Source of the DNA: Kofleriaceae bacterium
Lineage (GTDB): Bacteria; Myxococcota_A; Polyangia; Haliangiales; Haliangiaceae
Reading direction: 5' to 3'
DNA length: 39,583 nt
NCBI GenBank assembly: GCA_024762925.1
Contig: JANTGM010000051.1
Span: 1 to 39,583, forward strand
Shown: one piece after another, positions 136 to 15,774 of the stretch
Position numbering within the stretch: position 1 is the first letter of the stretch
Layout of the letters: every line of letters begins with the position of its first letter
The notes under the pieces: generated by a model
The model's database searches: none
Told to the model about the DNA's origin: nothing
What the model saw: the letters and a program-made list of their open reading frames with translations, nothing else
Position numbers and translations under genes: made by a program

Positions 136-2238
136 CTAGGGCGAGACCAAGACGAGTCCCTGAGCACTGAGCGCCCATATTCGGCCATAGCGGTCACTCT
201 CGACATCAAGAATGCGGTTCTCTATAAGGCCTCTCTTGGTGTCAAGACGCCGCACCTTCGCACCGTCGTAGACTCCTAGCCCCTTGTCGGTCGCGAGCCA
301 CAGTTTGCCATCTTGGCCAATCACAAGGTCATTGATAGAGGTGCGCATGGCTTGTGGGAAGGTCCAACGCTCGCCATTCCACTCCCCAACACCACGACTT
401 GAGGCGGTGTAAACCATGCCGCCACTTGAGCAAACCACCCCCTCAAGGAGCTCCGAGCGCAGGCCATCGGCTTCGATGTACGTCTTGAGATCCTTGCCAA
501 CTACGCGAGTGGCTCCCTGCGATGAGGCGAGCCAAACCTCGTTCTCACCGATAAAGCCAATGCCTGTGATGTCGACGGGCACAGGTAGCAGCCCGCGTTT
601 TTCGGCGCCCTCTTCAAAGCTGGCACGGTGATACACAACATAGCCCAGGCTTAGATCCAGCACTGCTACCCCGTATGGAGTCTCTTCCCCACGATCATCA
701 ATCGCGCCTAGCGAAACCCATATCTGACCGTCAGGCGCTTGCCGCATCGCCTTAACGCGCACTTGTTTACCAGGCGTGCGGATGTGCATGCCGGGAACTT
801 CTTTCCAAACTCCATCCTCATGGATGCGAAGTGCCAGCGCAGCACCTGCATCCACTGGAGGCTCCTCGTCGTCGAGTCGTTCACCGTTCTGTGGTTCGAC
901 AACAAGGTCTGAGGCGTCCACTGCGGCGAGACTAAGAACTCTTCCACCTTCTAGAGCCAAGACCCCAAACACTCGGGCGCTATCATCCACTCGGGAAAAT
1001 GCTTCACCATCCCAGCGCCACAGCGCATTTGCTTCACCACGAGCTGCTGTCGAGAGATAGCAAAGGTCGCGCGATTGGCACGCCACCGAGAGAACATCGG
1101 CGCCAGCAGAAATCTCGCTGCGCCGAAACCAACGACCTGGCCTATCCCCCTGTGCAGCTGTCCACTCCATTGTGCCCAAGCGACCCGCGGCCAAGAAAAG
1201 AGAACGCTCATTGGTTGAGACGATGCGAACATCGGGCGGTATCCGAGTGCTCAATGCCTCAAGAACGGGAGAGCCAGAAAACCGCATCTTTGATGCCTTG
1301 GCCACCTGTCGAAGCCGAGTCTGCGTCTTGCTTTCCAGTGGGGCTGTCTTGGGTTCGACGCGAAGACGTAGCTGGTAGAGCTTGTCTTTTGCGAGCACAA
1401 AGGTGTTCTCAGCGTCGCTCGCAACTCCCAACCAGCGCCCCGAATCCGCGACTCCATCTCGGTCTTCAAAACTCGCGCAGCCGGCGGCACTGGCGAGTGC
1501 CAACACTTGCGTTCCTTTCTCCGATGTTGCCAAGACCACAACGTGGGTGTCATCGAAGCGCGCCACTGACGATACAGAGGAATACTCGCAGGACTGGGCA
1601 GCTTCCATCGGTCGCGCTACGCCGTCTTGATCGACACGCATAAGGCCGGTCTCGCCGGCAATCCAAAGAGCGCCAAGGCGATCTTGGTACAGGGAATTCA
1701 CACTGCTCTCGATGCCTGTCTTCGTCCAGCCACTTCCGGGCTGCAGGTAAAACAGCCCCTCTTGAGCACCAATCCACAAGCCACCATCGCGGGCGGGAGC
1801 GAGCACGGCATGGGCCAACGTGGCGATTCCGAAAACGCCTGGGGCGGGTGGCAACTCAGAAAAGGTCGAGGTACCCGCTTCGTAGCGGCTGATCCCAGCA
1901 TCTGTGGCGACCCAAAGCCAATCCCGATCTTGGTCGTAGGCCATGGCAAAGACCTCGGTCCCCGGCAGGCCGTGCTCATGGGTGAGAGGCAAACGCTCCT
2001 CCGTTTTCAAGTCCCAGCGGTCAAGACCATCGCCGCTCGTTACGAAGAGGTAGTTTGGCGTGGCAGCAATCGCCCGCACCGGTTGCGCTTCGGTAAACGC
2101 CTGGACTCGAACTCGTGCCTTTGGTTTGGGCGCGACAACCTCGGGCTTTTCGCAAGCCAAGAGGCAGAGCCCAAGGAGCGGACTCACCCACCATGCTCTT
2201 CTGTTCCAGACTCGTGCTTTGTGATGTAATGGTGCCAT
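136..2238 (-). CDS. Beta-propeller (Reg_prop-like) lipoprotein
   Basis: This is a predicted 700-residue exported lipoprotein. The start at 2238 gives a basic N-terminus, a hydrophobic stretch and the lipobox LLAC, with the lipidated Cys near residue 29; the open frame extends 43 codons further upstream but that part has no signal-peptide character. The body contains repeated blades of the two-component-regulator-propeller type, with motifs such as LWVATDAGISRY, LWIGAQEGLFYL, LWIAGETGLMRV and LWLATDKGLGVYDG, so it should fold as one or two beta-propellers. No kinase or GGDEF domain follows the propeller, so it is a stand-alone sensor, scaffold or binding protein at the membrane. Its start codon overlaps that of the divergent gene at 2237. 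The family assignment is from visible repeats; the ligand is unknown. Confidence 0.8.
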   Translation of the reverse strand: MAPLHHKARVWNRRAWWVSPLLGLCLLACEKPEVVAPKPKARVRVQAFTEAQPVRAIAATPNYLFVTSGDGLDRWDLKTEERLPLTHEHGLPGTEVFAMAYDQDRDWLWVATDAGISRYEAGTSTFSELPPAPGVFGIATLAHAVLAPARDGGLWIGAQEGLFYLQPGSGWTKTGIESSVNSLYQDRLGALWIAGETGLMRVDQDGVARPMEAAQSCEYSSVSSVARFDDTHVVVLATSEKGTQVLALASAAGCASFEDRDGVADSGRWLGVASDAENTFVLAKDKLYQLRLRVEPKTAPLESKTQTRLRQVAKASKMRFSGSPVLEALSTRIPPDVRIVSTNERSLFLAAGRLGTMEWTAAQGDRPGRWFRRSEISAGADVLSVACQSRDLCYLSTAARGEANALWRWDGEAFSRVDDSARVFGVLALEGGRVLSLAAVDASDLVVEPQNGERLDDEEPPVDAGAALALRIHEDGVWKEVPGMHIRTPGKQVRVKAMRQAPDGQIWVSLGAIDDRGEETPYGVAVLDLSLGYVVYHRASFEEGAEKRGLLPVPVDITGIGFIGENEVWLASSQGATRVVGKDLKTYIEADGLRSELLEGVVCSSGGMVYTASSRGVGEWNGERWTFPQAMRTSINDLVIGQDGKLWLATDKGLGVYDGAKVRRLDTKRGLIENRILDVESDRYGRIWALSAQGLVLVSP

Positions 2239-2899
2239 GGCAAGCGGTAGACGAGGTGGCCCACCTGACCTAAAGAGTACCCTGGGTTCGCTCCTGCGAA
2301 CCACCCTTGACCAAGCCTCGGCGGTTCGAGAGGTCGTCGAGCAGCAAACTCGATCCCGCGGTGGCATTCTCGATCAGGCGCTAACCCAACGCAAACGCAC
2401 GGCAGCATTCGCAAGACTGGGCGAGCAGGTCTACCGCATGGCGCGGCGAGGCGAATTGGGCGAACTGCTCCTCGATCCCGAGATAGGCCTGCGAATTGGC
2501 GAATTGGAGCGGCTCGATGATGACAGCTTTGGGGACGACATTCCCCCAGTGAGTTCCGGCCCCGAAGCCGTGAGCAGCGCTGAGTATGCCGCGCGCTTTC
2601 AGACCGATCGTGGCGATGAGCCCGGGGCTGGCGAGTACCGAGTGTGGCGTCCAGTGCTACCGGATGACGAGGCGATTGTCGATGTGGACGAGGAGCCCTC
2701 TGAGCCCTCTGCTCCTGTCGATGAAGACGTCTCAGCCAAGACGAGCGGCCCCGCGCGCCCATCACGGATGCCAAGGCGCTCGGCGATTCGGCAAGGAGGC
2801 GGCATTCGCTTCGCCGACAGAGGGCCAAATCCCGAGGATCCGAACTCGGATGAAGACCTCGCAAGCTATATGCATGACGATGACGTTCCTGAGGAATAG
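2237..2899 (+). CDS. Hypothetical protein, acidic C-terminal half
   Basis: A 220-residue protein I do not recognise. It has no signal peptide or membrane segment. Residues about 10-95 are helical-looking and rich in Arg, Glu and Leu (LKSTLGSLLRTTLDQ, LGEQVYRMARRGELGELLL), possibly a coiled coil. Residues about 95-220 are low-complexity, acidic and Pro/Ser-rich, ending in EDLASYMHDDDVPEE, and are probably disordered. The start ATG lies within CCATGG at 2235-2240 and overlaps the divergent start codon on the other strand by two bases. The last 26 bases overlap the following lysyl oxidase gene, which suggests translational coupling and a shared transcript. Function cannot be inferred. Confidence 0.7.
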   Translation: MASGRRGGPPDLKSTLGSLLRTTLDQASAVREVVEQQTRSRGGILDQALTQRKRTAAFARLGEQVYRMARRGELGELLLDPEIGLRIGELERLDDDSFGDDIPPVSSGPEAVSSAEYAARFQTDRGDEPGAGEYRVWRPVLPDDEAIVDVDEEPSEPSAPVDEDVSAKTSGPARPSRMPRRSAIRQGGGIRFADRGPNPEDPNSDEDLASYMHDDDVPEE

Positions 2900-3971
2900 C
2901 ATCGTCATCACAGCCCTGGCCTATGCTGCGTGCTCCGGTCCCCCCACGACAACCAGCGCGCCTCACGATGCTGCCGTCCAAGACGCTGGGCCCATCGCAG
3001 ATAGCATGCCGATCAAGCCTGATGGCAGCGCCGACTTCAGTATTGATATGGGGCGGTCGCAGATTGACCTGAGCATTGGTACTGAGATGTTTGCTGTTGA
3101 CTCATGCGAACTTGATCCGAGCGAGCAGTGCGTTGGTGCTGCTGGTGAGCGCAGTGTCTTGCGATTTTCCGTCGAGACGATCAATTTGGGAGACGCCGAC
3201 ATCTCGCTTGGCCCACCTGGCGACAACCCCAACTACGAGTTTTCCCAATGTCACGGTCACTTTCATTTCCGTGGCTACGCGAGCTATCGCCTTCTTGGAG
3301 AATCGGGAACAGAAGTCTTGGTTGGCAGGAAGCAGGCATTTTGCTTGGTTGACTCGGAACCCTACACAGATGAGGCAGCCACAGAACGAACCTACAGCTG
3401 CCAAAACCAGGGGCTCTCAGCTGGCTGGGCGGATGTCTATGCGGCAGACCTTCCCTGCCAGTTTCTGGACATCACAGACATCGCAGACGGCGAGTACACG
3501 CTTGAAGTCGCTGTCAATCCAGATGGCTTGCTTGGCGAGCACGACCCCACGAACAATCTGGGCAGCATTGCAATTCGCATCGGCGATCCTCATCTCGAGA
3601 CTCCCACCGAAGCATGCCCAAGCGTTGCGCCTCGCTATCTCGATCGCATTCAGCGGGAATGCGACTGGGACTTTGTAGGCAACTTCGATTGCATCCCAGG
3701 AACGCAGACTGGTGCTGGCTGCTCGCAATCCTGTGGCGTTGGCAGCTGTGAAGGCAACGCCATGATTCGCGTTTGTGACGCGGCCTCGGTCAATTGCACA
3801 AGTGGCAACGCCCTGGGTTCCAACGACAATCGATGCGGCAGTGCCTGTCCTCTAGCAAGCGGCTTTCTATGCCCTGAGTCTGGGCAGTTGGCCGTCTACG
3901 CGGCAGCCTCGGAACATGGACACCCCTACGAGTGCAACGTGGCGATTCGTGCAGGCCCGATTTCGCCATAG
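2874..3971 (+). CDS. Bacterial lysyl oxidase-family copper lipoprotein
   Basis: A 365-residue predicted lipoprotein (signal sequence with AYAAC lipobox, Cys20) carrying a lysyl oxidase domain at about residues 65-235. Known features of animal LOX are preserved: the copper motif C-H-x-H-x-H (CHGHFHF, His127/129/131), the Lys of the lysine-tyrosylquinone cofactor in GRKQAFCLVD (Lys153) and the partner Tyr in DVYAADLPCQFLDIT (Tyr189), 36 residues apart, close to the animal spacing. LOX enzymes oxidatively deaminate primary amines using copper and LTQ, so an active extracytoplasmic amine oxidase is likely. The region from about 235 to the end is a Cys-rich extension with about a dozen cysteines and unknown role. 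The start at 2874 (alternative ATG 2880) lies inside the preceding gene, and the upstream open frame lacks signal-peptide character. Confidence 0.85.
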   Translation: MTMTFLRNSIVITALAYAACSGPPTTTSAPHDAAVQDAGPIADSMPIKPDGSADFSIDMGRSQIDLSIGTEMFAVDSCELDPSEQCVGAAGERSVLRFSVETINLGDADISLGPPGDNPNYEFSQCHGHFHFRGYASYRLLGESGTEVLVGRKQAFCLVDSEPYTDEAATERTYSCQNQGLSAGWADVYAADLPCQFLDITDIADGEYTLEVAVNPDGLLGEHDPTNNLGSIAIRIGDPHLETPTEACPSVAPRYLDRIQRECDWDFVGNFDCIPGTQTGAGCSQSCGVGSCEGNAMIRVCDAASVNCTSGNALGSNDNRCGSACPLASGFLCPESGQLAVYAAASEHGHPYECNVAIRAGPISP

Positions 3972-4003
3972 ATGCTTTGAGGCTCTCACTCCGCCTCGAA
4001 CTC

Positions 4004-4582
4004 TCACGAGGACGAGGCTAAGAACATTTCCAATCCGAGCGTCCTAGCAACCTCGCCGACCCTCGTGGCATCAACGACATGAACTCCATTTGGGTCAAAC
4101 GAAACATCGGTGATGCCAGGGTGTTCTGCTTCCAGGCTCTCGTAGAGTTGCCTTCGACGGCGGGCCCGAGCGCTTGCCTCGGAGACAATTTCGAGTTCTT
4201 CTTTGCGCTCGAGGGCCTCGCGAACCATGTTGCGCAAGTTGTTTGCGTCGAAGGGCTTTCGCACAAAGCGATGAACTTCGCCCTCGTTAATGGCTCGGAC
4301 CGCTGCATCCATGTTGCCCGCGCCAGTGACAAATACGCGAATCATTGCCGGCTGAAGCTCGTGGGCTTTTGCCATGACCTCGTGCCCATTGAGCACGGGC
4401 ATGTCAATGTCGCAGAGCATGAGGTCGTACTTCTCACGCTCCAACGCTTCGACGGCGAGTTCAGGTTGATCAATGCAGGTTACGTCAAAGGCGCAACGGC
4501 GCAACGTTCGACGCAGGCTTGCTAAGACATCTCGGTTGTCATCGACAATGAGGATCTTTGGTGTCTGGGAAGCCTTGCTCAT
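4004..4582 (-). CDS. Response regulator, receiver domain with short C-terminal region
   Basis: A 192-residue protein with a CheY-like receiver domain at residues about 8-125. The acidic pair Asp14/Asp15, phospho-acceptor Asp58 in LMLCDIDMP, Thr in FVTGAGN and Lys109 in RKPF are all present, so it should be phosphorylatable. After the receiver comes a helical Arg/Glu-rich linker and about 45 residues with no recognised output domain. The start is taken at 4582 because its ATG overlaps the TGA stop of the kinase gene as ATGA, a typical coupled arrangement; an alternative ATG lies at 4603. The coupling implies it works with the Ser/Thr kinase encoded just upstream, although Hanks kinases do not normally phosphorylate receivers on Asp, so the link is inferred. 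Confidence 0.85.
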   Translation of the reverse strand: MSKASQTPKILIVDDNRDVLASLRRTLRRCAFDVTCIDQPELAVEALEREKYDLMLCDIDMPVLNGHEVMAKAHELQPAMIRVFVTGAGNMDAAVRAINEGEVHRFVRKPFDANNLRNMVREALERKEELEIVSEASARARRRRQLYESLEAEHPGITDVSFDPNGVHVVDATRVGEVARTLGLEMFLASSS

Positions 4583-5922
4583 GCTGGCAACCACCTGCGC
4601 CATCCCTTGCGCTGCAGGAGTGCAAGCACTCGGTCAAGCTCCGCAATGACGGCGTCTGTGGTTGGATACCGGTCTTCTGGTTTCTTTGCCAGCAGCCGCT
4701 CGAGAACCAGCCACAGTTCTTCTGGGATCTCTTCGCTCGAAGCTGTGAAGAGTGGTGGGGGGGGCTCAAGAATGTGTTTCATCACGATGTCACGTGCGGT
4801 TTCGCCCTCAAAGGGCACACGTCCACTGACCAATTCGTAGAGTACAACTCCAAACGAATACATATCCGAGCGCGAATCGGTTGGCAGTGCTTGGGCTTGC
4901 TCTGGCGCCATGTAATACGGCGTGCCTACAACCATGCCAGGGGGACCATCGGGAACGTCACTCTGATCAATATCGGGAACGGATGCTGCACCAAAGTCCA
5001 CAACCTTGATTCGCTCTCCTTTGGGTGATTTCTCGACGAATACATTCGAAGGAGAAACGTCTCGATGCACAATGCCAGCAGAGTGAGCGGCTCCCAACGC
5101 GGCCGCTACATCGCGCATGAGAACGAGTGCTCTAGTGGGTTCGATTGCGCCCTGCATGTCCATGATGTCGTCGAGGCTGCGGCCGCCGAGAAGCTCCATG
5201 ACAAGATAGTGACGCCCATCAGAAAAACTCCCAAAGTCGCTAACGTCGACAATGCCATCATGCTGGACCCGAGCGGCTGCGCGCGCTTCTCGAACAAAAC
5301 GCTTAGCGGCATCGGGATCTTCGCGGAGTACGCCTCCCAATAGCACTTTCATAGCAAACTTCTTGCGGAGTAAGGTGTGTTCGACTAGGTAGACCATGCC
5401 CATGCCGCCACGTCCCAAGGTTCGCTCAACACAGTACGGGCCCACGCTGGTTCCCGGCGCGAGAATCTCCGGGTAGTCTTGCCCGCCTGGCTGCTGGGCA
5501 ACGCTGCTGTCGAGGTCTTCTCCGACATCGTCGAGTACTCGCAACTCGCCAGCCAGACCGCTATCCGTGAGTCGAATGGTGACAAGCAGTTCGAGGTCCG
5601 TGTCCCCGACTCGTGCATTGAGCCTGCCGTTTTGCGTTCCTGGCGCCAGCAAATCGAGCCGGGCCAAGAGGGCAAAGCGGGCAAGCACTGCATCGCCAAG
5701 CCCCTCTTCAAACTGGGTCGCAACGATTGCCTTGCGGTTCTTCTCCATGGTCACGGTGTGAGAGCCGAGCTCCAGCTCCTCTCCAGACGGCTCAAACCAG
5801 ACCGTGGTGGCACGTTGCGTTGCCAACGAATACACAATGATATCAACTACGTCGACAGCATTTGGGGACCTTTCCAGGGCCCCCTCAGGCCCGCGGCTCG
5901 ACGCTTCCATTGCACCACTCAC
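4579..5922 (-). CDS. Hanks-type Ser/Thr protein kinase with GspE/PilB-N-like domain
   Basis: A 447-residue soluble kinase with no predicted membrane segment. The catalytic domain spans about 162-430: glycine loop GRGGMGMVYLVEH (170-182), Lys192 in FAMKVL, Glu212, catalytic loop HRDVSPSNV with Asp288 and Asn293, DFG at 309-311 and APE at 339-341. The usual Lys of HRDxKxxN is Ser, a variant frequent in myxobacterial kinases. Residues about 22-132 read like the N-terminal substrate-recognition domain of type II secretion/type IV pilus ATPases: DIIVYSLATQRATTVWFEP aligns with the familiar (S)DIHIEP segment and LLARLDLLAPGTQNGRL with the RLPQDGR segment. No ATPase domain follows. The gene overlaps the downstream response regulator by 4 bp. 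The kinase call is firm; the N-domain relation was judged by eye. Confidence 0.9.
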   Translation of the reverse strand: MSGAMEASSRGPEGALERSPNAVDVVDIIVYSLATQRATTVWFEPSGEELELGSHTVTMEKNRKAIVATQFEEGLGDAVLARFALLARLDLLAPGTQNGRLNARVGDTDLELLVTIRLTDSGLAGELRVLDDVGEDLDSSVAQQPGGQDYPEILAPGTSVGPYCVERTLGRGGMGMVYLVEHTLLRKKFAMKVLLGGVLREDPDAAKRFVREARAAARVQHDGIVDVSDFGSFSDGRHYLVMELLGGRSLDDIMDMQGAIEPTRALVLMRDVAAALGAAHSAGIVHRDVSPSNVFVEKSPKGERIKVVDFGAASVPDIDQSDVPDGPPGMVVGTPYYMAPEQAQALPTDSRSDMYSFGVVLYELVSGRVPFEGETARDIVMKHILEPPPPLFTASSEEIPEELWLVLERLLAKKPEDRYPTTDAVIAELDRVLALLQRKGWRRWLPA

Positions 5923-6010
5923 AGGGACACCATCGGCGAATTGCCAAGAAGCTTTACGAGAATGCCTCTCTTACCTACAGACGGGATCGAATGGTGGCTG
6001 CGGCAGCGAC

Positions 6011-7687
6011 CTAGAAGCGGTAGCCAAGCCTGGCAAAGGCGGTGAGCATGAGAACCGAGGGCTGGGGAAGCTGAGTGCCCGCAGCATCCGCCGTCACGAG
6101 CTTCTGACTTGCGACATTCAACATGCCCATTGCGAACCAGTTGCGCTTTGGCCGATAGAAGATGACGCCCCCTGCGCTAATGCTTGTGGCTTCCGAGGTG
6201 CCAAAGCACTCCAAGAAATTGGCTTGCCCGGGACCGCAATTGAGTTGTTGCCTTTGGTCGTTGGATTTTAGGTAGCTCAGGTTTACTTCGAACTCGCCTT
6301 TGTTGTCAGCCAAGTCGCGGCTCAGTTCCAGACTCCCAAGCGTGGACTTTGAGCGATCGAGATTCTTGGAGTCCTCTCCCATGACGAGCTCATCGCCAAA
6401 GCCTGCACTGCGCGTGACAGAAGCACCAATGCGAAAGTCTTTGTACGATTCGCGATCAACGAGCTGGAGCTGAATGTCCAGCGCTTGTGCCAGTGGCAAA
6501 AGAAGGATCGTCTCGTCGGTTTGCACCAGGGCAATCTCTGGTCGACGACGCAGCGTTCCCGAAGCACTTAGCGCAAATCGATTTTGCTTGAAGCTGGCTG
6601 TGCCGCCAAGTTCGCCGCTTTCCTGAGCAACCCTAGATACGTACCAGTTGTTTTGCACCAGGGCGGAAGCCATTGGGTCGAGAGGGTCCAAGCGTTGTTG
6701 TGCGTGCACATTCAGCGTCTCGGTGTCGACTCGATTGATTCTCGCAAAGAGGCGCGTCGCTGTGGTTGGTCGGTGGCTTGCGCCGATGGAAAGATTGGAA
6801 ACAGCAGCGTCCTGATTGCCGGCTACATCAAAGACGATGAAGTGATAAATATCGGTCTTGTCGGATTGCTGCCAATAGCCGTTGCTCGTGAGAAAGATTC
6901 GATTGCGCTCCGCCAGCCCAGTAGCGATTTCATCACCGCGAGGCAAGATGCCGGCTACACCAATCGAACCGTAGATTCGCTCCCTTCGATAGCTACCGCT
7001 GGCACCGGCGACCACAGGCAACAGCCGCTTCGGAGCGGTGGGGTCCATGACCTTATTCTGCACGTTGTAATCTGTGCGAAGGTCGCGCGACCCGCGTCTT
7101 GGGTAGAGGCCCGCGAAGCCCATGTACTTCCAGGTCTTGCCCTTGTGTTGCTCGACTTGGACACCGTCAAAACGCACGGAAGCCACTTGGGGCACCACCT
7201 GTCGCCCCACCTTCACGTCGTAGTCGCGCATGCGATAGCGAAGATGAGCCTCTCGTAGGTGCAGCTCGTCCCCGCCAAAGGTGCCAGACTGAGCAGCTTC
7301 GCACGTGCCGATCGGCAGCGCATCACTGCGAATCCGGCCCTTGCAGCGCTCGATTTGCTTGCGCCCTCGGAAGTCGAGTTTGAAATCGAACTTGCCACCG
7401 CTGATGTGCTTCGCGGCGAGTTGCAAACGCAAGTCGGTGAACACTCGATCGGTGGGGCTAGCACTCTCAATCGGTATGGCCGCACCATCGTTGCTACCAG
7501 ATTCGCTGAAGAAGAAACTCGATGACGTGAGGCTTCCCGACAAGCCAGTCTTTTTCTTATCGGCTTTGCTCTCCCGATCTGCCTCGTAGAATGGTGGCTT
7601 AGAGCTGTCGTCTTGCGCTTCTGCGATCGATGGGCAGACGAGCAGGCCTAGGGCGCAAACGGCCAGTGTGCCCCGCATTAGCGACAT
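6011..7687 (-). CDS. Outer-membrane beta-barrel protein of redox cluster
   Basis: A 558-residue exported protein: signal peptide MSLMRGTLAVCALGLLVC ending SIAEA, a charged spacer, then many alternating amphipathic segments and a C-terminal aromatic residue (ARLGYRF), the classic mark of an outer-membrane barrel. Central motifs include LHLREAHLRYRMRDYDVKVG and RQVVPQVASVRFDGVQVEQ, as in porin-like barrels. The start at 7687 is preferred because GGGAG lies 5 bases upstream; the ATG at 7678 (TAATG overlap) would be too far from it. The 10-bp overlap with the 30-heme cytochrome gene argues that the barrel and the cytochrome act together, as in porin-cytochrome conduits of metal-reducing bacteria. 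It shows no obvious similarity to MtrB by eye, so the conduit role is inferred from context. Confidence 0.75.
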   Translation of the reverse strand: MSLMRGTLAVCALGLLVCPSIAEAQDDSSKPPFYEADRESKADKKKTGLSGSLTSSSFFFSESGSNDGAAIPIESASPTDRVFTDLRLQLAAKHISGGKFDFKLDFRGRKQIERCKGRIRSDALPIGTCEAAQSGTFGGDELHLREAHLRYRMRDYDVKVGRQVVPQVASVRFDGVQVEQHKGKTWKYMGFAGLYPRRGSRDLRTDYNVQNKVMDPTAPKRLLPVVAGASGSYRRERIYGSIGVAGILPRGDEIATGLAERNRIFLTSNGYWQQSDKTDIYHFIVFDVAGNQDAAVSNLSIGASHRPTTATRLFARINRVDTETLNVHAQQRLDPLDPMASALVQNNWYVSRVAQESGELGGTASFKQNRFALSASGTLRRRPEIALVQTDETILLLPLAQALDIQLQLVDRESYKDFRIGASVTRSAGFGDELVMGEDSKNLDRSKSTLGSLELSRDLADNKGEFEVNLSYLKSNDQRQQLNCGPGQANFLECFGTSEATSISAGGVIFYRPKRNWFAMGMLNVASQKLVTADAAGTQLPQPSVLMLTAFARLGYRF

Positions 7688-10098
7688 ATCGACTCCCGAT
7701 TGGTTCCCACTGCATTCGGCGCCCAAGAGTTGGGATTGTGGCACTGAGAGCAACTTGAGTACGCTTGGTGGGCAGCATCTTTCCCTGCAGCCTCGGCCTT
7801 GTGACACCCGTAGCAGGTCGCCGAGAGGCCGCCGTAGTTGCCCTCTTGGTGGCAGTCGGCGCATGGCAAGGTGCGATGCAGTCCGGTGAGATTGCAACCA
7901 ACCTTGGAGTGATTGAAACGAGCTGGAGCAAACGACCACTGGTTGTGGCAAGTGCCGCACCGAGGTGAGAGCGAGTTTCCGTGGATATCGTCTTGTCGGT
8001 GGCAGTTGATGCACAAGTTGCCAGAGCCCGCAAGCCGTTGGTTGTTCACGTGGCAGCGATCGCAACTCTGCTGATCGTGCGCCCCTTTCAGATTGAAATC
8101 GCCAACATCATGCAGCGCGATGATGTCCGAGAAACTCTGAGTGGTGTGACAGGTCGCGCAGTTTGTTCCAAACTGGCCTTTGTGCACACGGGGTTCGGGG
8201 TGACACGCGCCACCTCCAAAGCAGTCCTTTGGCCTAGGCTTGAACGTGACGCTTGGATGACAGTCCGCACAGCGAACTGTTAGGTGTTTGCCGGTGAGCT
8301 TGTAGTCACTTTGCGAGTTGTGATCGAAGATGTTCTCGCCGGTCTCGAGGTGACAGTTCTCGCACTTAGTGCCCAGGCGTTTCTTGTGCACATCGTCCTT
8401 TGCGTGACAGCCAACGGCAGAGCAGTTGGTCGGCGTCTTCGCAAACTTGCGATTGGGGTGACACTGCACGCATTCCGGAACTCGGTTGTGCAGGCCGAGT
8501 AGTGGCCAGTCGGTGTCGTCGGTATGGTCAAAGCGTACGGCCTGCCAGATGCCCGGTTGGTGGCATTTATCGCACTCATCGCCGAGTCTGCCGAGGTGAA
8601 GCGAGTCGTCATGGCAGCGCACGCCACACTGCTTTGGCGTGCCATCGTATTCGTCGTTTACGTGGCACTTGACACAATCCACTTTGAGGTGGCCCTTGTC
8701 CAGCGGCCATGTTCCGCGAAAGCCATGGATGCCTTTGACGCCCTCCGCTCCCACGCGCTTGGAACCCTCGGTCTTGTGGCATTCCAAACAGGTCTGTACC
8801 CGCTTGCCATCTCGCATGACCTTCACGCTCTTCGGCTTGTCGGTGAAGTCGTTGTTGTGAACGTTCTTGTGTTCATGACAGCCCATGCACAGCTTGCCAT
8901 TGTTCGTCGACTTACTAACGTCTAAGAACTTATCTGGGCGCTTGCCAAGGTGGCACTTGCGGCAAGTTGCACTGGCGTGTTTTCCTCGAAGCGCAAACTT
9001 GGTGCGCTTGTCGTGCTTGAAGCGGTTGGGCTTCCAAGAAGATTCAGGGTGGCAGTACTGGCAAGCGGGTGGGCGCCCAAACTCCTTGAATCGTTCTTTG
9101 TGGGGGTTGTCGCTGGCATGGCAGGTGGCACATGCACGATCGGGCGCTTTCGAACCAAGCTTCTTGGTGTGGCATTTGTAGCAATTGACTTTGCTATGGG
9201 CCCCGCTCAGATCGAACTTGGTTCGAGCCTTGTGGTCGAACTTGTACTTCTTAAGAGAGCGGTCTTTGGGTGAGTGACACCAATCACAACTCTTGCGATC
9301 AAAGAGCATGTCTTTGTGGGGCGAGGCGTGACATCCCGAGTTGCCACAGTTACCCGGCTTTGCGCGCTTGAGGTTAAAGCGGGCCTTGGGGTGACACTTT
9401 GCGCAGGCCACATCAATGTGGGCGCCCTCTTGGGGAAACTCCGCGTGGCTCTTCTTGTTGTGGTCGAAGTCGAGTCGCGACTTAGGAGGCTTCCAGGAAA
9501 CCTCCGTATGGCAGCGCTCGCACTGCATAAGCGTCTTGCGATCAAAGCCGTGGGGCTGATCGCGCTTGTGGCAGCTTCCACAGAGCTTGTCTTCGCCAAG
9601 GTAGAGGCGACGACCTGCCTTGTTCTTCTTCTTGTGGCAATCCTTGCACTCAAGGACCTTGTGTTTGTCGCGAAGAGGCCAGCCTGCCAGTTTGTGATCG
9701 AAGCCCTTTTCCTGGCCCTTGACCGTTCGCCAACCCATCATGTCGAAGCTTCGGCCCTTGTGATCGAGGTGGCAGTCCTCGCAGTTCTTCCCCCTCACTT
9801 TGGAGGAGGCGTGGTAGCCCTTGCCGGATCGAATTCGCTTTTTCAGATCGTTGTGGTCGTGACAGTCGAGGCACTTGTTGCTGTCGATGCTCTTGCTGTC
9901 GTTGACGTGGCAATCGTTGCAGCTATCTTGGTTATCGAGAGCAGCGTGCTCTTTGGCCAGCGCGCCGGGGCTGGAAGAAAAGAAGTTACTCTGGGCCTGT
10001 GCCGAACGCTCTCCGACAAAGCACAGAAGCAAGGCAAGCAACCAAGCTTGGGCAACCGCGAAACGAGCAACGGTAAATCGAGTGCCAAAACGAGTCAT
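7678..10098 (-). CDS. 30-heme c-type cytochrome of ten triheme modules
   Basis: An 806-residue secreted protein with a Sec signal (basic N-region, hydrophobic core, RSAQA cleavage site). I count 30 heme-attachment motifs: 26 canonical CXXCH and four expanded ones, CX4CH (CGNSGCH, CSAVGCH), CX3CH (CGVRCH) and CX5CH (CFGGGACH). The motifs fall into ten tandem units of about 65-85 residues with three hemes each; the third heme is followed by F-x-H and by L-x-G-x-H segments that can supply distal histidines. It should be a fully bis-His, periplasmic or cell-surface electron carrier. The ATG at 10098 is chosen over an upstream TTG at 10110; it lies 15 bases after the stop of the FeS/cytochrome b gene, so the three genes form one operon. 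Whether it stays periplasmic or is exported is not visible. Confidence 0.93.
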   Translation of the reverse strand: MTRFGTRFTVARFAVAQAWLLALLLCFVGERSAQAQSNFFSSSPGALAKEHAALDNQDSCNDCHVNDSKSIDSNKCLDCHDHNDLKKRIRSGKGYHASSKVRGKNCEDCHLDHKGRSFDMMGWRTVKGQEKGFDHKLAGWPLRDKHKVLECKDCHKKKNKAGRRLYLGEDKLCGSCHKRDQPHGFDRKTLMQCERCHTEVSWKPPKSRLDFDHNKKSHAEFPQEGAHIDVACAKCHPKARFNLKRAKPGNCGNSGCHASPHKDMLFDRKSCDWCHSPKDRSLKKYKFDHKARTKFDLSGAHSKVNCYKCHTKKLGSKAPDRACATCHASDNPHKERFKEFGRPPACQYCHPESSWKPNRFKHDKRTKFALRGKHASATCRKCHLGKRPDKFLDVSKSTNNGKLCMGCHEHKNVHNNDFTDKPKSVKVMRDGKRVQTCLECHKTEGSKRVGAEGVKGIHGFRGTWPLDKGHLKVDCVKCHVNDEYDGTPKQCGVRCHDDSLHLGRLGDECDKCHQPGIWQAVRFDHTDDTDWPLLGLHNRVPECVQCHPNRKFAKTPTNCSAVGCHAKDDVHKKRLGTKCENCHLETGENIFDHNSQSDYKLTGKHLTVRCADCHPSVTFKPRPKDCFGGGACHPEPRVHKGQFGTNCATCHTTQSFSDIIALHDVGDFNLKGAHDQQSCDRCHVNNQRLAGSGNLCINCHRQDDIHGNSLSPRCGTCHNQWSFAPARFNHSKVGCNLTGLHRTLPCADCHQEGNYGGLSATCYGCHKAEAAGKDAAHQAYSSCSQCHNPNSWAPNAVGTNRESICR

Positions 10099-10113
10099 AA
10101 CAACAAGCAAATT

Positions 10114-12285
10114 TTACAACGACTTTGCAAAGGCCAGGTAAATATGAACCGCAGAGATTGCCGCCATAATGACGCTGAAGGGCACATGCACCTTTTTCCA
10201 CGAGTGCAATAGCAGCTGGGCGCGCGACGCAAGCACTTTGCGGCGATTAATAAGCATCATTCGCCCTGTGCGCCGTGCAAGCTCAGAGCAGGCCTCTTTA
10301 GAGATGCCACCGCCTGAGAACACCCGTTTGCGGTGCATCCACCGCCCTGGTCGTCGGAGGTCTTCGAGAATCACCCAAACAAATGAGCGAAGCATTCCCG
10401 CATTGGCAGCAATGTGCTCGGCAAGCTCTCTGTGCGGATTCAAGATGGCATCGCTCTCGGCGACCGCGTGGGGAAACTGTGCTCGCAGGCTTCGCATTGC
10501 GCGCTGGTGATCGAGTTCTTCGAGTTCGCGTCCATTGAGAAGATCGGGAACCTGCGTGTAGAGATAGCGGCCAATCACACCAGAGATGAAGACGATGATC
10601 ATGCTCCAAAAGGCCGCAGAGACCCAGTTGTCGAGCTTAAAGCCAGTGTGCAAGACAATGAAGGCAGGCCCCATCGTTCCCGACATCAAGTGAAAGTCGA
10701 ACCACATGGTATTGCTGGCGATCTTGCGGAAACTCTTCATGCGCCGAAGCGGCACGTAGAGGATGGCCAAGAGCATGAGCCCGGTTCCGACATAGCCACA
10801 ATTGACCGCGAGGTCTGTGCCTGCGCGGAAGCCCACCTTCATCTCGGCGATGACTGGTTCAAGACCTTCTGCGCGCAGCAGCACGTATTGAAGCGAGCTT
10901 GTTGGCCTGTACATGCGAAGCATGATTTCGGCCATGGCAAGGAAGAAGGCTGTGAGGGATATGCCCCACATGAGCACAGGAGCAAGCCGGTTGCGCTTGG
11001 TCTTTGCCATGCCTGCATCGCGCACCCCAATCCCCTCGGTAAAGGGCTCGATGGGAAGAATCTCGCGATGATCGAAATTCGAATCCATGTCCTGAACCAT
11101 CCCAGCAGCGGCCTGAGCCGCAGGCGAGCGCTCTTGGAATAATTCGTAGGCACTCACCTCGATGAGCGAGCCTGTAGGACACGCCGAGACGCAAGCTTGC
11201 GTGGAGTAGCTGTAGCAGTGATCGCACTTGTTCGCGATGCGACGAGCCCGTGCCACCCTGCCCTTGCCGGGACCAAAATTCAGTGAGCCATCCTCGTCGA
11301 GGCGGAGTTTGAAATCCTCACGATAGGTTGGGTTGCTCGAATCCGAGACGTCGACCATCTCAATCGATTCAAATGGGCAACTCTGTGCACAAAGCGTGCA
11401 GCCTACGCATGTCGATTCGTTGATGACGACTTCGCGAATCTCGGGATCAAATCGAATGGAGTCGTAATCACAAGGTGTGATGCAACGCTGATCGGTGCAG
11501 GTTCGGCACGAGAAGACGAAGTCAAGCATGCCCAGCTGATAGCCACCAAGGGTGAGCCGGCGTGCCCCGTAACGCTCTTCGCAGGCCTGCTCACACTGCT
11601 TGCAGTCGATGCAGGTATCGAGCTGCCGGACCCGAACCATTTCACCAGAGACGCTAATGCCATGGCGAATGAAGAAATCCAGAATCTCCTGCTTGACGCC
11701 CAGGATGTTGTGTAGGCGTTCACGCCCCACCTCAATGGCAAGCCGCAAGCGATCTTCAAAGAACGGAAACTGCACTGCCAACTCTGCAGACATTTCATGA
11801 GACATGGAAATGACCACGGTCGGCTCGACGGCGAAAAAGGCAACATCCCCCTGAGTCCCTTGAGCGAGAGAGGCAGAGTTGAAGAGGTCACCACGCATGA
11901 AGGTTGCGAGGTTCTTGCGGGCAACGCGAGAGAGTGGCGGCGGCTGCAAGGCAGAGAGGTCATTGCGCTCCTTCTCCGTCATCTGCTCAAACTCGATTTG
12001 CGCCTGCTTGCGCTCGGCAATCTTGTTCGGATCGAACACAGCGACCGCGACCTGTCCCGAGGCAACCATCATGATTCGCGGACCGATTTGCGGCGTGGCA
12101 ACGTCCTGGGGGTCGGCGACAAAGACATCGCGATCAAAGACTTGCCGAGTCACGCCCCCAAGAACCACCGCCCGCCAAAGGGACTCGTTCGGAATTCCGT
12201 CGAAGACGGGCATCTGCCGCAGATCACGATAGGCCTGCTGTGTCTCTGGCGAGTTCTCGCCTGGATTGCCCTGGGGTTGATTCAT
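10114..12285 (-). CDS. Fusion of CNB-like, 4x[4Fe-4S] ferredoxin and di-heme b membrane domains
   Basis: A 723-residue inner-membrane protein. Residues about 20-200 resemble a cyclic-nucleotide-binding fold (PVFDGIPNESLWRAVV, MMVASGQVAVAVF). Next come four ferredoxin-type cysteine sets: 225/228/231/235, 260/263/268/272, 293/296/299/303 and 354/357/365/369, the pattern of DmsB/HybA-like electron-transfer subunits. The C-terminus has about five membrane helices (435-456, 490-513, 530-548, 554-575, 690-720). His532/His546 and His700/His714 are each 14 residues apart, as expected for two stacked b hemes held between two helices in ferric-reductase/NOX-like domains. Electrons could pass from a cytoplasmic donor via the FeS chain and b hemes to the 30-heme cytochrome encoded next, or in reverse. 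The start is uncertain (12285 chosen; in-frame 12345 and 12366 upstream). Confidence 0.85.
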   Translation of the reverse strand: MNQPQGNPGENSPETQQAYRDLRQMPVFDGIPNESLWRAVVLGGVTRQVFDRDVFVADPQDVATPQIGPRIMMVASGQVAVAVFDPNKIAERKQAQIEFEQMTEKERNDLSALQPPPLSRVARKNLATFMRGDLFNSASLAQGTQGDVAFFAVEPTVVISMSHEMSAELAVQFPFFEDRLRLAIEVGRERLHNILGVKQEILDFFIRHGISVSGEMVRVRQLDTCIDCKQCEQACEERYGARRLTLGGYQLGMLDFVFSCRTCTDQRCITPCDYDSIRFDPEIREVVINESTCVGCTLCAQSCPFESIEMVDVSDSSNPTYREDFKLRLDEDGSLNFGPGKGRVARARRIANKCDHCYSYSTQACVSACPTGSLIEVSAYELFQERSPAAQAAAGMVQDMDSNFDHREILPIEPFTEGIGVRDAGMAKTKRNRLAPVLMWGISLTAFFLAMAEIMLRMYRPTSSLQYVLLRAEGLEPVIAEMKVGFRAGTDLAVNCGYVGTGLMLLAILYVPLRRMKSFRKIASNTMWFDFHLMSGTMGPAFIVLHTGFKLDNWVSAAFWSMIIVFISGVIGRYLYTQVPDLLNGRELEELDHQRAMRSLRAQFPHAVAESDAILNPHRELAEHIAANAGMLRSFVWVILEDLRRPGRWMHRKRVFSGGGISKEACSELARRTGRMMLINRRKVLASRAQLLLHSWKKVHVPFSVIMAAISAVHIYLAFAKSL

Positions 12286-12333
12286 CAAGTTTTGAGACCG
12301 CTGAGAGTATCTGCTGACGGCTTGCGCCTGGCT

Positions 12334-12350
12334 GCACCAACGCATGGTGC
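12334..12350. promoter_or_regulatory. Inverted repeat in divergent intergenic region
   Basis: A perfect 6-bp inverted repeat, GCACCA-ACGCA-TGGTGC, lies between the divergent redox operon (start 12285) and the plus-strand gene starting at 12464. Its position would suit an operator or regulator site. No convincing -35/-10 pair could be placed on either strand, so function is a guess. Confidence 0.25.
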
Positions 12351-12463
12351 GGTATGCTGCGAGCACGTCGTACGCTCGGCGACAGTTTCGGCCGAATTAC
12401 TCTTGCTTTCAAGATGTTAAGCCGGTTTCTAGGCGCAATCAACGAATCCGTTCTGAGACCATC

Positions 12464-12988
12464 GTGAAGCGAATTTGGCCCCACCTCCTCTTGCCCACCC
12501 TTGTTCCGCTGTTGGGATTTGGAAATATGGCAAATGCCAAAGAAACAAACTCTTTCGTGGCGCCACCCCAAAGTGAGGTTCATTTGGCGATTGGCCCTGT
12601 GATGGCCGGAATTGCGCGCAGTGAAGGCTGGGATACCCAGGTAGGTGGCGAATTGCATCTCGTTCGTCTCAACCCCTCAGATCGACTTGCTGCGATCGGC
12701 GAGGCATTTGGAGCACTCACGTTTGCTAGCGATGAGACAATTCGCCTCTACCTCGACTCATACGTTGGGCTCAAAGTCACCGCAGATCTCACGGTTGGGG
12801 TGGCATTGGCTCCCGTGATCGATCTCCATCCAAATCGGCGATCGATCTTTGGGGCACAAGCAACAGCCTGGTTGCACGCGGGCATTGCCCCCTATGTCTC
12901 GGCCTCGCGCATGTGGGGCTTGGGTGCTTCCAACAAGGCCGAGTTCTCGATTGGCCTGCGTATCCCCTTCTCAGTTGCCAACTTCTAG
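12464..12988 (+). CDS. Small exported barrel-like hypothetical protein
   Basis: A 174-residue protein beginning at a GTG codon that places a good signal peptide at the N-terminus (VKRIWPHLLLPTLVPLLGFG, cleavage after ANA). The open frame extends about 40 codons further upstream but that part is Arg-rich and not signal-like. The mature part alternates polar and hydrophobic residues (SEVHLAIGPVMAGIA, YLDSYVGLKVTADLTVGVAL, AEFSIGLRIPFSVANF) and ends in Phe, as small outer-membrane beta-barrels do. It is divergent from the redox operon and precedes the receiver-XRE regulator by 124 bases. A link to the redox cluster is possible but not demonstrated. I do not recognise the family. Confidence 0.65.
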   Translation: MKRIWPHLLLPTLVPLLGFGNMANAKETNSFVAPPQSEVHLAIGPVMAGIARSEGWDTQVGGELHLVRLNPSDRLAAIGEAFGALTFASDETIRLYLDSYVGLKVTADLTVGVALAPVIDLHPNRRSIFGAQATAWLHAGIAPYVSASRMWGLGASNKAEFSIGLRIPFSVANF

Positions 12989-13036
12989 TGCCCAAGAGCC
13001 GGCATGTTGCAAAAAATAGCACCGAGTCATCGCCAG

Positions 13037-13054
13037 CTGCACCCCCTTGTGCAG
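13037..13054. promoter_or_regulatory. Inverted repeat upstream of the receiver-XRE gene
   Basis: A perfect 6-bp inverted repeat, CTGCAC-CCCCTT-GTGCAG, sits about 60 bases before the start of the regulator gene. XRE-type regulators often bind such dyads near their own promoter, so autoregulation is a reasonable but untested guess. There is no T-run after it, so it is unlikely to be a terminator for the preceding gene. Confidence 0.3.
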
Positions 13055-13112
13055 AGTGCTAGTATTTGCCTTTCGCATTTGCCGGTGAGAGGCGGACCAT
13101 GAAGGGGGAGCA

Positions 13113-13709
13113 ATGCCACAACTAAGTATTCTCGTCGTCGACGATGACCAAGAAGTTCGTGAATTCCTTAAGGACTTTCTTGAGGGAGAAGGGTATGCCG
13201 TCTCGCTTTTGAGCGACCCAACGGAAGCTGTCACATCGTTGAAAGCGAACCAGTATCACCTTGTCATCCTTGATCTCATGATGCCCAAGCTCTCTGGGAT
13301 CGATCTCTTGGCGCAGATCCGACAGATAGACGATGACGTCGCAATCATCATTCTCACGGGGCATCCAAGTCTCGAGACCGCGACCACTTCGATTGAGTTG
13401 GAGGTTTCCGCCTACATTCGCAAGCCATTCGCGCCTCAGGAGTTCCGCGAAGCAATTGAGCGGATTGCAAAGAAGAAAGGGCTGCATCTCTCACGAGAGG
13501 AAGAGCTGCACTCCACGATTGGTCGCACGATTCGCGAACTGCGAAAAGAGCGTAGCCTCACGCTCAAACAAATGTCGCGCCGCACGGATCTCAGTGTATC
13601 GCTACTCTCGCAGATCGAGCGAGCTGAATCGTCTGCGTCGGTTTCATCGCTGTTCAAGGTATCGACCGCCCTAGATGTGAGCATCACAGAACTATTCGGA
13701 AGCTACTAG
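13113..13709 (+). CDS. Response regulator with C-terminal XRE-family HTH output
   Basis: A 198-residue DNA-binding response regulator. The receiver domain (about 3-122) has the acidic pair Asp10/Asp11, phospho-acceptor Asp54 in VILDLMMP, Thr in IILTGHPS and Lys in YIRKPF. Residues about 136-198 form an XRE/Cro-CI helix-turn-helix (IGRTIRELRKERSLTLKQMS, RTDLSVSLLSQIERAESSAS), ending with the typical LDVSITELF segment. Receiver-XRE fusions are uncommon compared with OmpR, NarL or NtrC outputs. A strong ribosome site, GGGGGAG, lies just before the ATG. No partner histidine kinase is next to it, so it is an orphan. Its TAG stop overlaps the stop of rpe on the other strand within a CTAG palindrome, so the two genes converge with no spacer. 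Confidence 0.9.
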   Translation: MPQLSILVVDDDQEVREFLKDFLEGEGYAVSLLSDPTEAVTSLKANQYHLVILDLMMPKLSGIDLLAQIRQIDDDVAIIILTGHPSLETATTSIELEVSAYIRKPFAPQEFREAIERIAKKKGLHLSREEELHSTIGRTIRELRKERSLTLKQMSRRTDLSVSLLSQIERAESSASVSSLFKVSTALDVSITELFGSY

Positions 13710-14383
13710 GGACGCGCAGCCTGTTCGGCTCGTTCACGCATGGTTGCAATGGTCTTGGACCAGTCATCGCTCTTGAAGATTCCACTGCCAGAGACAATGA
13801 CGTTGGCGCCTGCGCTCGCAACACGATGAACGTTGTCGACTTTGATACCGCCATCCACCTCGATATCTAGCTCCAAGCCCCTCGATACTGCTCGCTCTCG
13901 CAGTCGCTCGATCTTTGGCAGGCACAACTCGATGAAGCTCTGGCCGCCGAACCCTGGATTCACGGTCATGATGAGCACCATGTCCAAGTCTTCAAGGACA
14001 CAGTCCACTGCATCAATGCTAGTGGCAGGGTTGAGTGCCACGGAAGCACGTGCACCCTGCGTTTTTATCTTCTGGATTGTGCCGTGGAGGTGAGTCACAG
14101 CTTCGGCATGCACGCTCACGATGTCGGCGCCCGCCACAATGTAGTCCTCTAGGTAAAGTTCTGCATTGCGAATCATGAGATGCACATCGAGGGGAATCCT
14201 GCTCGCGGCCTTGGCGGCTTTCACAATCATCGGCCCGATGGTGAGATTGGGAACAAAGTGTCCATCCATCACATCGACATGCAAGAGGTCCGCGCCAGCA
14301 TTGGACATGGCTTCAATGTCCGCGGCCAGTCGGCCAAAGTCGGCAGATAGAATCGAAGGAGCAATCTGAATCGAAGACGTCAC
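13706..14383 (-). CDS. rpe: Ribulose-phosphate 3-epimerase
   Basis: A 225-residue TIM-barrel enzyme interconverting ribulose 5-phosphate and xylulose 5-phosphate in the pentose phosphate pathway. The family signature runs through the protein: IAPSILSADF at the start, LHVDVMDGHFVPN with metal/catalytic Asp and His, LDVHLMI, MTVNPGFGGQSF and the second catalytic Asp in DIEVDGGI, then NVIVSGSGIF for phosphate binding. The GTG at 14383 gives the usual family length; an upstream extension to 14479 has no family similarity. It is the last gene of the priA-fmt-rsmB-rpe cluster, 38 bases after rsmB. It converges with the receiver-XRE gene and shares stop-codon bases with it. Confidence 0.95.
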   Translation of the reverse strand: MTSSIQIAPSILSADFGRLAADIEAMSNAGADLLHVDVMDGHFVPNLTIGPMIVKAAKAASRIPLDVHLMIRNAELYLEDYIVAGADIVSVHAEAVTHLHGTIQKIKTQGARASVALNPATSIDAVDCVLEDLDMVLIMTVNPGFGGQSFIELCLPKIERLRERAVSRGLELDIEVDGGIKVDNVHRVASAGANVIVSGSGIFKSDDWSKTIATMRERAEQAARP

Positions 14384-14421
14384 GGAGCCGACGCTAGCAT
14401 GGCCACATGGCTCCGAGGTTC

Positions 14422-15774
14422 CTAGCGTCGGCGCATTCGAGCAGCGTAAAAGGCGTCCTGAGAGCTCTTGTGGGGCCATGAGGAGAAGGTCCCATCCTCG
14501 GATAGAAGCGAAGACCAGTCAGGATCGCTTTCGGACTTGGACGTTGGTGGCGCCATCTCAAACTCGGGGTGGCGAGCGAGAAAGTCGGCAATCTGCTCTG
14601 GACCTTCGGCACTCGTAAAGGTGCAAACGCTGTAGAGCAAGATGCCTCCGGGTTTTAGGCAGCGAGCCACAGCGTCGAGGAGACGCGATTGCAGCGCCAC
14701 GATCTCAACAATCTGTGGGCGCTTGTCGGGCCCCCACTTGGCTTCAGGATGTCGCCGCAACACACCCAATCCGCTGCATGGAGCGTCGAGCATGACCAAA
14801 TCGTAATCCGGGGCGAGCTTGGCATCTTCGCGCGTGGCGTCGGCAACCAGTGGCGAAACGCCTTCGAGCCCGAGGCGCTTCACCGAGTCGTGCAACAGGC
14901 CAATCTTTCTCTTGCTCAAGTCCACAGCATCGATATGTAGCGAGAGGGGCAACTCGGCGAGGTGCGTGGTCTTGCCGCCAACGCCTGCACAAGCGTCGAG
15001 AACGCGCCAACCTTGCTCAGCTTCTGCCATAGCACCAATGAGCTGCGCTGCCTGATCTTGTACAGTCCAAAGGCCTTCAGAAAAACTCTGAGAGTGCTCT
15101 GGAGAACCGAGACCGGCAACGTCGATTGCCCAGGGGTATACGCTAGACAAGGAACAGCGGGCGCCCTCGCCTTGCTCAAGACGTTCGATCAAATCCTCTA
15201 CCGTGGTGCGCCGGCGGTTCACGCGCAAGCTCAGCGGCGCAACCTCCTGCATGCCGGCAGCAACGTCTGGGAACTGGTCCTCGCCAACCCGATCGAGCAG
15301 CAAATCCGCGAGCCACTCGGGAAGGGAGTTTCGCTCCATGACACTCGCCTTGTCTGAGCCTTGGGAAAGCTCCGGTTCGCCTTCTCGGCCAAGCTTGCGC
15401 AACAGTCCGTTGGCGAAACCTCCAAGCTTCGGCCCTCCGACTCGCCGCACCTCGGTAACGGCATCATCCACAGCGGCGTGGTCTGGAATTCGCTCGAGGA
15501 AGAGCAGCTGATAGGCGGCAACACGCAATGCCAGCAGCGCGGCAGGTGGCAGCTTGCTGAGCCCTTTGTGAGCGTATGAAGCGAGCGCCCGATCGAGCCG
15601 ACTCCGATGTCGGAGAACTCCATAGGTAATTTCCGTAGCCAGGCGACGGTCCTTTTCCCCCAGACGGGAGCGCTGCATCTCCGCGGAGAGTGCGAGCGTT
15701 GCGTACGACCCGGCCTCAACGCGGGCAAGTACTCTCCGTGCAACCACTCGCGCCGAAGGTCCTTGCGCGCTCAT
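14422..15774 (-). CDS. rsmB: 16S rRNA m5C967 methyltransferase RsmB
   Basis: A 450-residue RNA cytosine-5 methyltransferase (Sun/Fmu family). Residues about 5-130 form the NusB-like RNA-binding domain (ARVVARRVLARVEAGSYA, EITYGVLRHRSRLDRAL). The Rossmann SAM-binding domain follows, with VLDACAGVGGKTTHLA, the catalytic-loop Cys in MLDAPCSGLGVLRRHPE and the nucleophile region LLYSVCTFTSAEG. It methylates 16S rRNA at the position equivalent to C967. Its ATG overlaps the fmt stop as ATGA, showing translational coupling with fmt, an arrangement common in bacteria. Length and motifs are ordinary. Confidence 0.95.
   Translation of the reverse strand: MSAQGPSARVVARRVLARVEAGSYATLALSAEMQRSRLGEKDRRLATEITYGVLRHRSRLDRALASYAHKGLSKLPPAALLALRVAAYQLLFLERIPDHAAVDDAVTEVRRVGGPKLGGFANGLLRKLGREGEPELSQGSDKASVMERNSLPEWLADLLLDRVGEDQFPDVAAGMQEVAPLSLRVNRRRTTVEDLIERLEQGEGARCSLSSVYPWAIDVAGLGSPEHSQSFSEGLWTVQDQAAQLIGAMAEAEQGWRVLDACAGVGGKTTHLAELPLSLHIDAVDLSKRKIGLLHDSVKRLGLEGVSPLVADATREDAKLAPDYDLVMLDAPCSGLGVLRRHPEAKWGPDKRPQIVEIVALQSRLLDAVARCLKPGGILLYSVCTFTSAEGPEQIADFLARHPEFEMAPPTSKSESDPDWSSLLSEDGTFSSWPHKSSQDAFYAARMRRR

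Follow-up and report, generated by a model that had tools for sequence, protein, structure and literature searches.

A conserved three-gene locus of Kofleriaceae encoding a probable trans-envelope electron conduit built around a 30-heme cytochrome

The window analysed here is a stretch of 39,583 nucleotides on contig 51 of the genome (6.8 Mb, 98% complete) of an uncultured myxobacterium of the Kofleriaceae type (Myxococcota), which gives a more precise identity to the non-classical deltaproteobacterium suspected in the initial annotation. Three consecutive genes on its minus strand (12285-6011) encode P0003, an inner-membrane protein with iron-sulfur (FeS) and cytochrome b domains, P0002, an exported cytochrome with 30 c-type heme motifs, and P0001, an outer-membrane beta-barrel (Table 1). 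The initial annotation, made from the sequence alone, had described an inner-membrane redox protein, a secreted 30-heme cytochrome and a barrel ending in Phe, encoded in that order with a 15-base gap and then a 10-base overlap, and had proposed that they form an electron conduit across the envelope. Both spacing figures proved exact (gap between P0003 and P0002, overlap between P0002 and P0001), and the description of each protein is borne out by the evidence that follows. Order, strand and spacing together point to a single operon with translational coupling. Alternative starts are available for two of the genes: an ATG (7678-10098, 806 amino acids) or a TTG (7678-10110, 810 amino acids) for P0002, and for P0001 either the start of the 558-amino acid frame (6011-7687) or the next ATG (6011-7678), from which the overlap with P0002 shrinks to one base (TAATG).

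The 30 heme motifs of P0002 comprise 26 CXXCH, one CX3CH, two CX4CH and one CX5CH. Each is kept in 90 to 100% of 29 homologues, and the same homologues conserve 32 histidines beyond those of the heme motifs. The motifs group into ten triheme modules that repeat every 67 to 96 residues, and most modules follow the pattern H(-17) H(-5) CXnCH CXnCH H CXnCH: one His stands 16 to 19 residues and another 5 to 6 residues ahead of the first motif, and a third just ahead of the third motif. Each module thus offers at least three candidate distal ligands, so that all 30 hemes are likely bis-His coordinated. A signal peptide is visible and a lipobox is absent. P0002 matches PF14522 above cut-off, and no full-length family model reaches its cut-off, which argues against the cytochrome being part of a known soluble respiratory complex. 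Its identification as an MtrA/DmsE decaheme cytochrome was rejected, TIGR03508 scoring 28 bits for a cut-off of 192 bits and the hemes numbering 30, not ten; the nanowire_3heme model, TIGR04257, reached 16.8 bits for a cut-off of 40. Two cysteines outside the heme motifs, 739 and 809, are invariant, and a conserved motif, ESxC(R/Q), is found at the C-terminus (residues 800-810); both features are encoded within window positions 7678-7890.

In P0003, 16 invariant cysteines (225-369) with ferredoxin spacing correspond to four [4Fe-4S] sites, and eleven Fer4-type models match in all 18 of the 18 homologues. Five hydrophobic segments follow this domain. Invariant histidines are placed at 532 and 546 in transmembrane segment 3 (TM3) and at 700 and 714 in TM5, which is the layout of a diheme cytochrome b, and DUF4405 matches 16 of the 18 homologues. 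No signal peptide is visible, and Lys and Arg cluster ahead of TM1 (mean 4.5), in loop 2-3 (mean 4.3) and in loop 4-5 (mean 26); from this positive-inside distribution the FeS domain is predicted to sit in the cytoplasm. The first 200 residues or so (about 24 to 208) look like a degenerate CRP/cNMP domain: PF00027 (cNMP-binding) is found in only one of the 18 family members, which is weak direct evidence, the best match of this domain in a PDB profile search is Crp/Fnr (weak, E 0.023), and a related protein on contig C4 of the same genome has clear CRP and FixK matches. CXXCH is absent from P0003. This, and the lack of a PF03264 match in the genome, led us to reject the CymA/NapC type; the CbcL/ImcH type was rejected for want of a c-type heme motif in P0003, the genome itself not having been scanned with CbcL/ImcH models.

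The structural model of P0001, built with 30 homologues, has a mean predicted local distance difference test score (pLDDT) of 78, with most strands above 90. It contains 22 long strands, which are connected by short turns at one edge of the barrel and by long loops at the opposite edge, and the chain ends in ...YRF. One of the loops predicted to be extracellular contains the Cys pair 484/494, whose members are conserved at 87% and 100% in the alignment. Searches of P0001 and its 30 homologues with Pfam and NCBIfam gave no match above noise, and a PDB profile search with P0001 returned none. Membership of the MtrB/PioB family was rejected, PF11854 being absent from the matches of P0001, of the 30 homologues and of the whole genome. 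MtrB was not among the fold-search matches listed for P0001 either, which leaves room for kinship between the two.

A survey of gene neighbourhoods in related genomes found the trio in the same order and on the same strand in at least five families, four of which (f1 to f4) belong to the order and one (f22) to the class. A copy of P0002 with 27 to 30 hemes lies directly upstream of the barrel, on the same strand, in 30 of 30 named loci and in 55 of 55 overall, the latter number including contigs counted twice. In family f6, the cytochrome-barrel pair is intact and the P0003 gene has moved to another place in the genome. Of 56 relatives, 35 carry P0003 together with the barrel and 19 carry neither; two genomes are discordant, with the match at a contig end in both. 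The corresponding P-value (Fisher test, about 1e-12) is inflated by the relatedness of the genomes, but the pairing kept in f6 after the relocation of P0003 is independent of that. Identity to the window proteins is 23 to 38% for the barrel and 43 to 60% for the cytochrome. Conservation of a fixed order across families at 23 to 60% identity rules out chance, and low identity in the barrel against higher identity in the cytochrome would suit a scaffold around a constrained wire. The possibility that P0001 is a plain substrate porin devoid of co-conservation fails, as far as sequence can tell, on two counts: no Pfam or NCBIfam family claims it, and it is strictly paired with the cytochrome. In many relatives the genes rpe, rsmB and fmt lie beside the trio, so that the locus looks vertically inherited and part of the core genome; a plasmid-borne origin was rejected, there being no plasmid match.

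The same genome holds a second, paralogous conduit locus on contig 43 (L003, G000:C43:1-16000; 393-15297), where the P0003-like protein, the 30-heme cytochrome and the barrel are respectively 44%, 49% and 30% identical to those of the window. It also encodes two proteins for which the window's locus has no counterpart. Beside the P0003 paralog, a 599-amino acid protein combines an N-terminal hydrophobic segment, two [4Fe-4S] sites and a flavoprotein domain of the pyridine-nucleotide type. The gene past the barrel encodes a lipobox (VLAGC) cytochrome of 1145 amino acids that has 32 heme motifs and six domains of TIGR01904, the 'GSu' type of Geobacter cytochromes. Both additions recur: a lipobox cytochrome stands beside the barrel in the type-2 loci of G002, G006, G009 and G011, and the flavoprotein gene adjoins P0003-like genes in several loci. 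The contig 43 paralog forms a full inside-to-surface chain, which argues strongly for a trans-envelope conduit. With co-conservation on one side and a surface lipoprotein cytochrome in the paralog and in the loci of relatives on the other, the conduit interpretation of the initial annotation is supported, and we conclude that the trio is a real, conserved and so far unnamed gene set that probably forms a conduit of the porin-cytochrome type.

Other observations concern the paralog and possible partners. The contig 43 locus also holds an SH3-domain protein that is possibly a barrel. Elsewhere in the genome are two cytochromes of the TIGR01904 type with about 11 hemes each (L154, G000:C129, 7122-8345; L155, G000:C88, 1504-2559), one of them with a lipobox; both are candidate surface partners for the window's locus.

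More divergent arrangements are also encountered. L066 and L132 combine a barrel, a 5-heme lipoprotein-like cytochrome, a 27-heme cytochrome and a P0003-like protein; they belong, with L065, to a divergent cluster of another family that includes a TPR-like protein. L075 brings together a short cytochrome b, a 36-heme cytochrome, a 5-heme lipoprotein, a barrel and a divergent flavoprotein-ferredoxin, and L076 is another cluster with a 36-heme cytochrome. Homology to P0001 could not be shown for the barrels of type-3 loci; the type-4 barrel aligns weakly with P0001 around a GRQ...DG motif. Finally, two further loci of the window's own genome, L068 (G000:C4:45000-64000) and L069 (G000:C26:21000-40000), encode a double-CRP, four [4Fe-4S] and cytochrome b protein. 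Its neighbour, of about 1240 amino acids, joins FHA domains, a transmembrane segment, c-type hemes, a second transmembrane segment, a ferredoxin and a pyridine-nucleotide flavoprotein, and is a fusion, apparently undescribed, that leads from NAD(P)H to cytochrome c. These loci also encode divergent cytochromes with 9 and 15 hemes.

In the window, two genes are transcribed away from the trio (Table 1). The product of the nearer one may be a small barrel, and the protein encoded by the other is a likely candidate regulator. Downstream of the barrel (window 4004-5922) lie a Ser/Thr kinase with an extra N-terminal domain and a response regulator; a pair resembling it also stands behind the barrel in another family (L165).

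Table 1. Genes of the trio and neighbouring features in the window
Feature	Position	Strand	Details
P0003, inner-membrane electron-transfer protein	10114..12285	-	723 amino acids; CRP/cNMP-type N-domain (by resemblance), ferredoxin domain, diheme cytochrome b
P0002, exported 30-heme c-type cytochrome, ten triheme modules	7678..10110	-	Heme motifs, signal peptide
P0001, outer-membrane beta-barrel	6011..7687	-	22 predicted strands, C-terminal Phe
Small secreted protein, divergently transcribed	12464..12988	+	174 amino acids; syntenic in most type-1 loci
Response regulator receiver with XRE-type helix-turn-helix	13113..13709	+	64-93% identical in 15 syntenic loci

How the trio would carry electrons can be proposed from the features of its proteins, and we consider it probable that it works as a trans-envelope electron conduit along the following lines. 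A low-potential carrier of the cytoplasm would deliver electrons to the four [4Fe-4S] clusters of the inner-membrane protein P0003, the donor being most likely an NAD(P)H-linked flavoprotein-ferredoxin such as the one encoded beside the P0003 paralog. The two b hemes of P0003 would pass the electrons across the inner membrane to P0002, whose ten modules are in principle long enough for much of the periplasm. In MtrA, ten hemes cover about 80 Å, and by analogy a chain of 30 could come close to the full periplasmic width. P0002 would dock with one end in the P0001 barrel, bringing hemes across the outer membrane, and electrons would then reach an external acceptor, either directly or via a surface cytochrome encoded elsewhere; a mineral, humics, an electrode or another cell may be the extracellular partner. 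We infer that P0001, P0002 and P0003 form a complex, and we have a moderate preference for the outward over the inward direction of electron flow.

Several observations weigh against this reading. The AlphaFold model of P0002 is poor (mean pLDDT 53.7) and unusable for shape or heme geometry. The fold matches listed for P0001 are generic porins, ushers and TonB receptors, and its ability to hold a cytochrome cannot be read from its shape. The claim that the trio supplies one component for each envelope layer stands as far as the three predicted locations are concerned; the surface cytochrome that rounds off this series is encoded in the paralog, and its gene is absent from the window's own locus. 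No donor gene adjoins the type-1 locus. Moreover, the genome has three heme-copper oxidases and does not require external respiration, so that use of the conduit would be optional or directed to some other end, for example redox balancing.

Alternative readings differ in how much of the scheme they retain. One keeps P0001 and P0002 as a conduit and makes P0003 a quinol oxidase or quinone reductase, with the FeS domain relegated to a side branch or to regulation. Quinone sites are frequent in diheme cytochrome b proteins, and the known inner-membrane entry points of extracellular electron transfer are quinol oxidases (PMC6295460). No quinone site was recognised in the P0003 sequence, although one could escape such inspection. 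The 16 invariant cysteines, the cytoplasmic position predicted for them and the presence of a gene for a flavoprotein partner next to the paralog favour a soluble donor instead, and we regard a quinone role for P0003 as rather unlikely, while ranking it ahead of the other alternatives. The same conduit could also run inward, with Fe(II), a cathode or another cell as the source of electrons that pass through the barrel, the 30 hemes and the cytochrome b and FeS centers to a cytoplasmic carrier. Multiheme wires conduct both ways and the Mto and Pio conduits do run inward (PMC6148476, PMC6295460); the cytoplasmic FeS clusters of P0003 could feed reductant, and the oxidases of the genome allow oxidation coupled to O2. 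However, reduction of NAD(P) by electrons at the level of Fe(II) is uphill, with no coupling site evident, which makes an inward conduit unlikely in our view.

A more radical departure would have no electrons cross the outer membrane at all: P0002 would act in the periplasm as a capacitor or reductase, and the barrel would serve only for the entry of a soluble substrate such as a metalloid oxyanion. Precedents exist for each half of this proposal. ExtI of Geobacter is a porin encoded in a cytochrome operon that affects selenite and tellurite reduction (PMC5877670), and GSU1996, with its 12 hemes, is considered to act as an electron capacitor (PMC10138318); in addition, P0001 resembles substrate porins in fold searches. 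By sequence, however, it matches no substrate-porin family, and both its strict pairing with the cytochrome and the surface multiheme lipoprotein encoded beside the paralogous barrel fit a conduit better. We therefore tend to dismiss this scenario as improbable. At the other extreme, the trans-envelope conduit that we prefer could be a single hard-wired chain, in which electrons of the cytoplasmic NAD(P)H/ferredoxin pool pass by way of FeS clusters and two b hemes into one 30-heme molecule that bridges the periplasm by itself and is lodged in the barrel. Such a chain would do without the quinone pool and without any diffusible periplasmic shuttle, be gated by the CRP-like domain, and be a core trait of an uncultured myxobacterial order. 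This elaboration is tentative, and we put it forward with more doubt than confidence.

In the open-access literature searched, we found no description of multiheme conduits in Myxococcota, Kofleriaceae or Haliangium. Known conduits use quinol oxidases of three multiheme families and short periplasmic cytochromes. If the trio is a conduit, it would represent an independent design for moving electrons between the cytoplasm and the exterior, with an FeS/cytochrome b entry and a 30-heme wire. Extracellular electron exchange would then be a likely core trait of the Kofleriaceae and their relatives, which are known from assemblies from, among others, sludge, lakes and groundwater and are otherwise regarded as aerobic predators or heterotrophs. 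The trio also provides concrete genes for asking whether such a wire bypasses the quinone pool.

The question arises as to how this locus compares with characterised systems. A conduit is defined by three elements, a periplasmic multiheme cytochrome, an outer-membrane barrel and a surface redox lipoprotein (PMC6148476). The first two are present in the window's locus, the periplasmic location of P0002 being predicted, and all three in the contig 43 paralog. Among the Geobacter conduits, the components show no kinship with each other or with Mtr (PMC6148476), so that a lack of sequence similarity is no argument against conduit function. MtrCAB, MtoAB and PioAB share with the trio the barrel and the periplasmic multiheme cytochrome, and P0002 has a weak and partial likeness to the DmsE-type decaheme model; they have ten hemes where P0002 has 30, whereas the trio has no MtrB_PioB match, no MtrC in the operon and no CymA partner. 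As regards MtrCAB, the initial view that the inner-membrane and cytochrome components are built differently is supported by the negative Mtr and CymA family tests. OmbB-OmaB-OmcB, ExtABCD and ExtEFG of Geobacter likewise join a periplasmic multiheme cytochrome to a barrel, and their surface lipoprotein cytochrome has a counterpart of the TIGR01904 type in the paralog. Their periplasmic cytochromes, however, have 5 to 15 hemes (PMC6148476), they lack an inner-membrane step as a fixed third gene, and family models reveal no relation of their components to those of the trio.

On the inner-membrane side, CymA, CbcL and ImcH have in common with P0003 the role of entry point for extracellular electron transfer that we propose for it. 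They are multiheme c-type quinol oxidases (PMC6295460), whereas P0003 has four FeS sites, two predicted b hemes and no c-type heme motif. The selenite and tellurite cluster of Geobacter, extHIJKLMNOPQS, also groups a porin and multiheme cytochromes with an inner-membrane cytochrome b and an Fe-S protein (PMC5877670), but its inner-membrane parts are of the Rieske/bc type, its cytochromes are shorter, it includes a rhodanese lipoprotein and it has no fusion like P0003. As for P0002 itself, GSU1996 (12 hemes) is also a chain of triheme c7-like modules, and GSU2210 (27 hemes), which has been grouped with GSU1996 (PMC10138318), likewise has a very high heme number. Each domain of GSU1996 contains one His-Met heme (PMC10138318), in contrast to the three candidate distal histidines per module of P0002, which is further set apart from both proteins by its ten modules and its constant pairing with a barrel.

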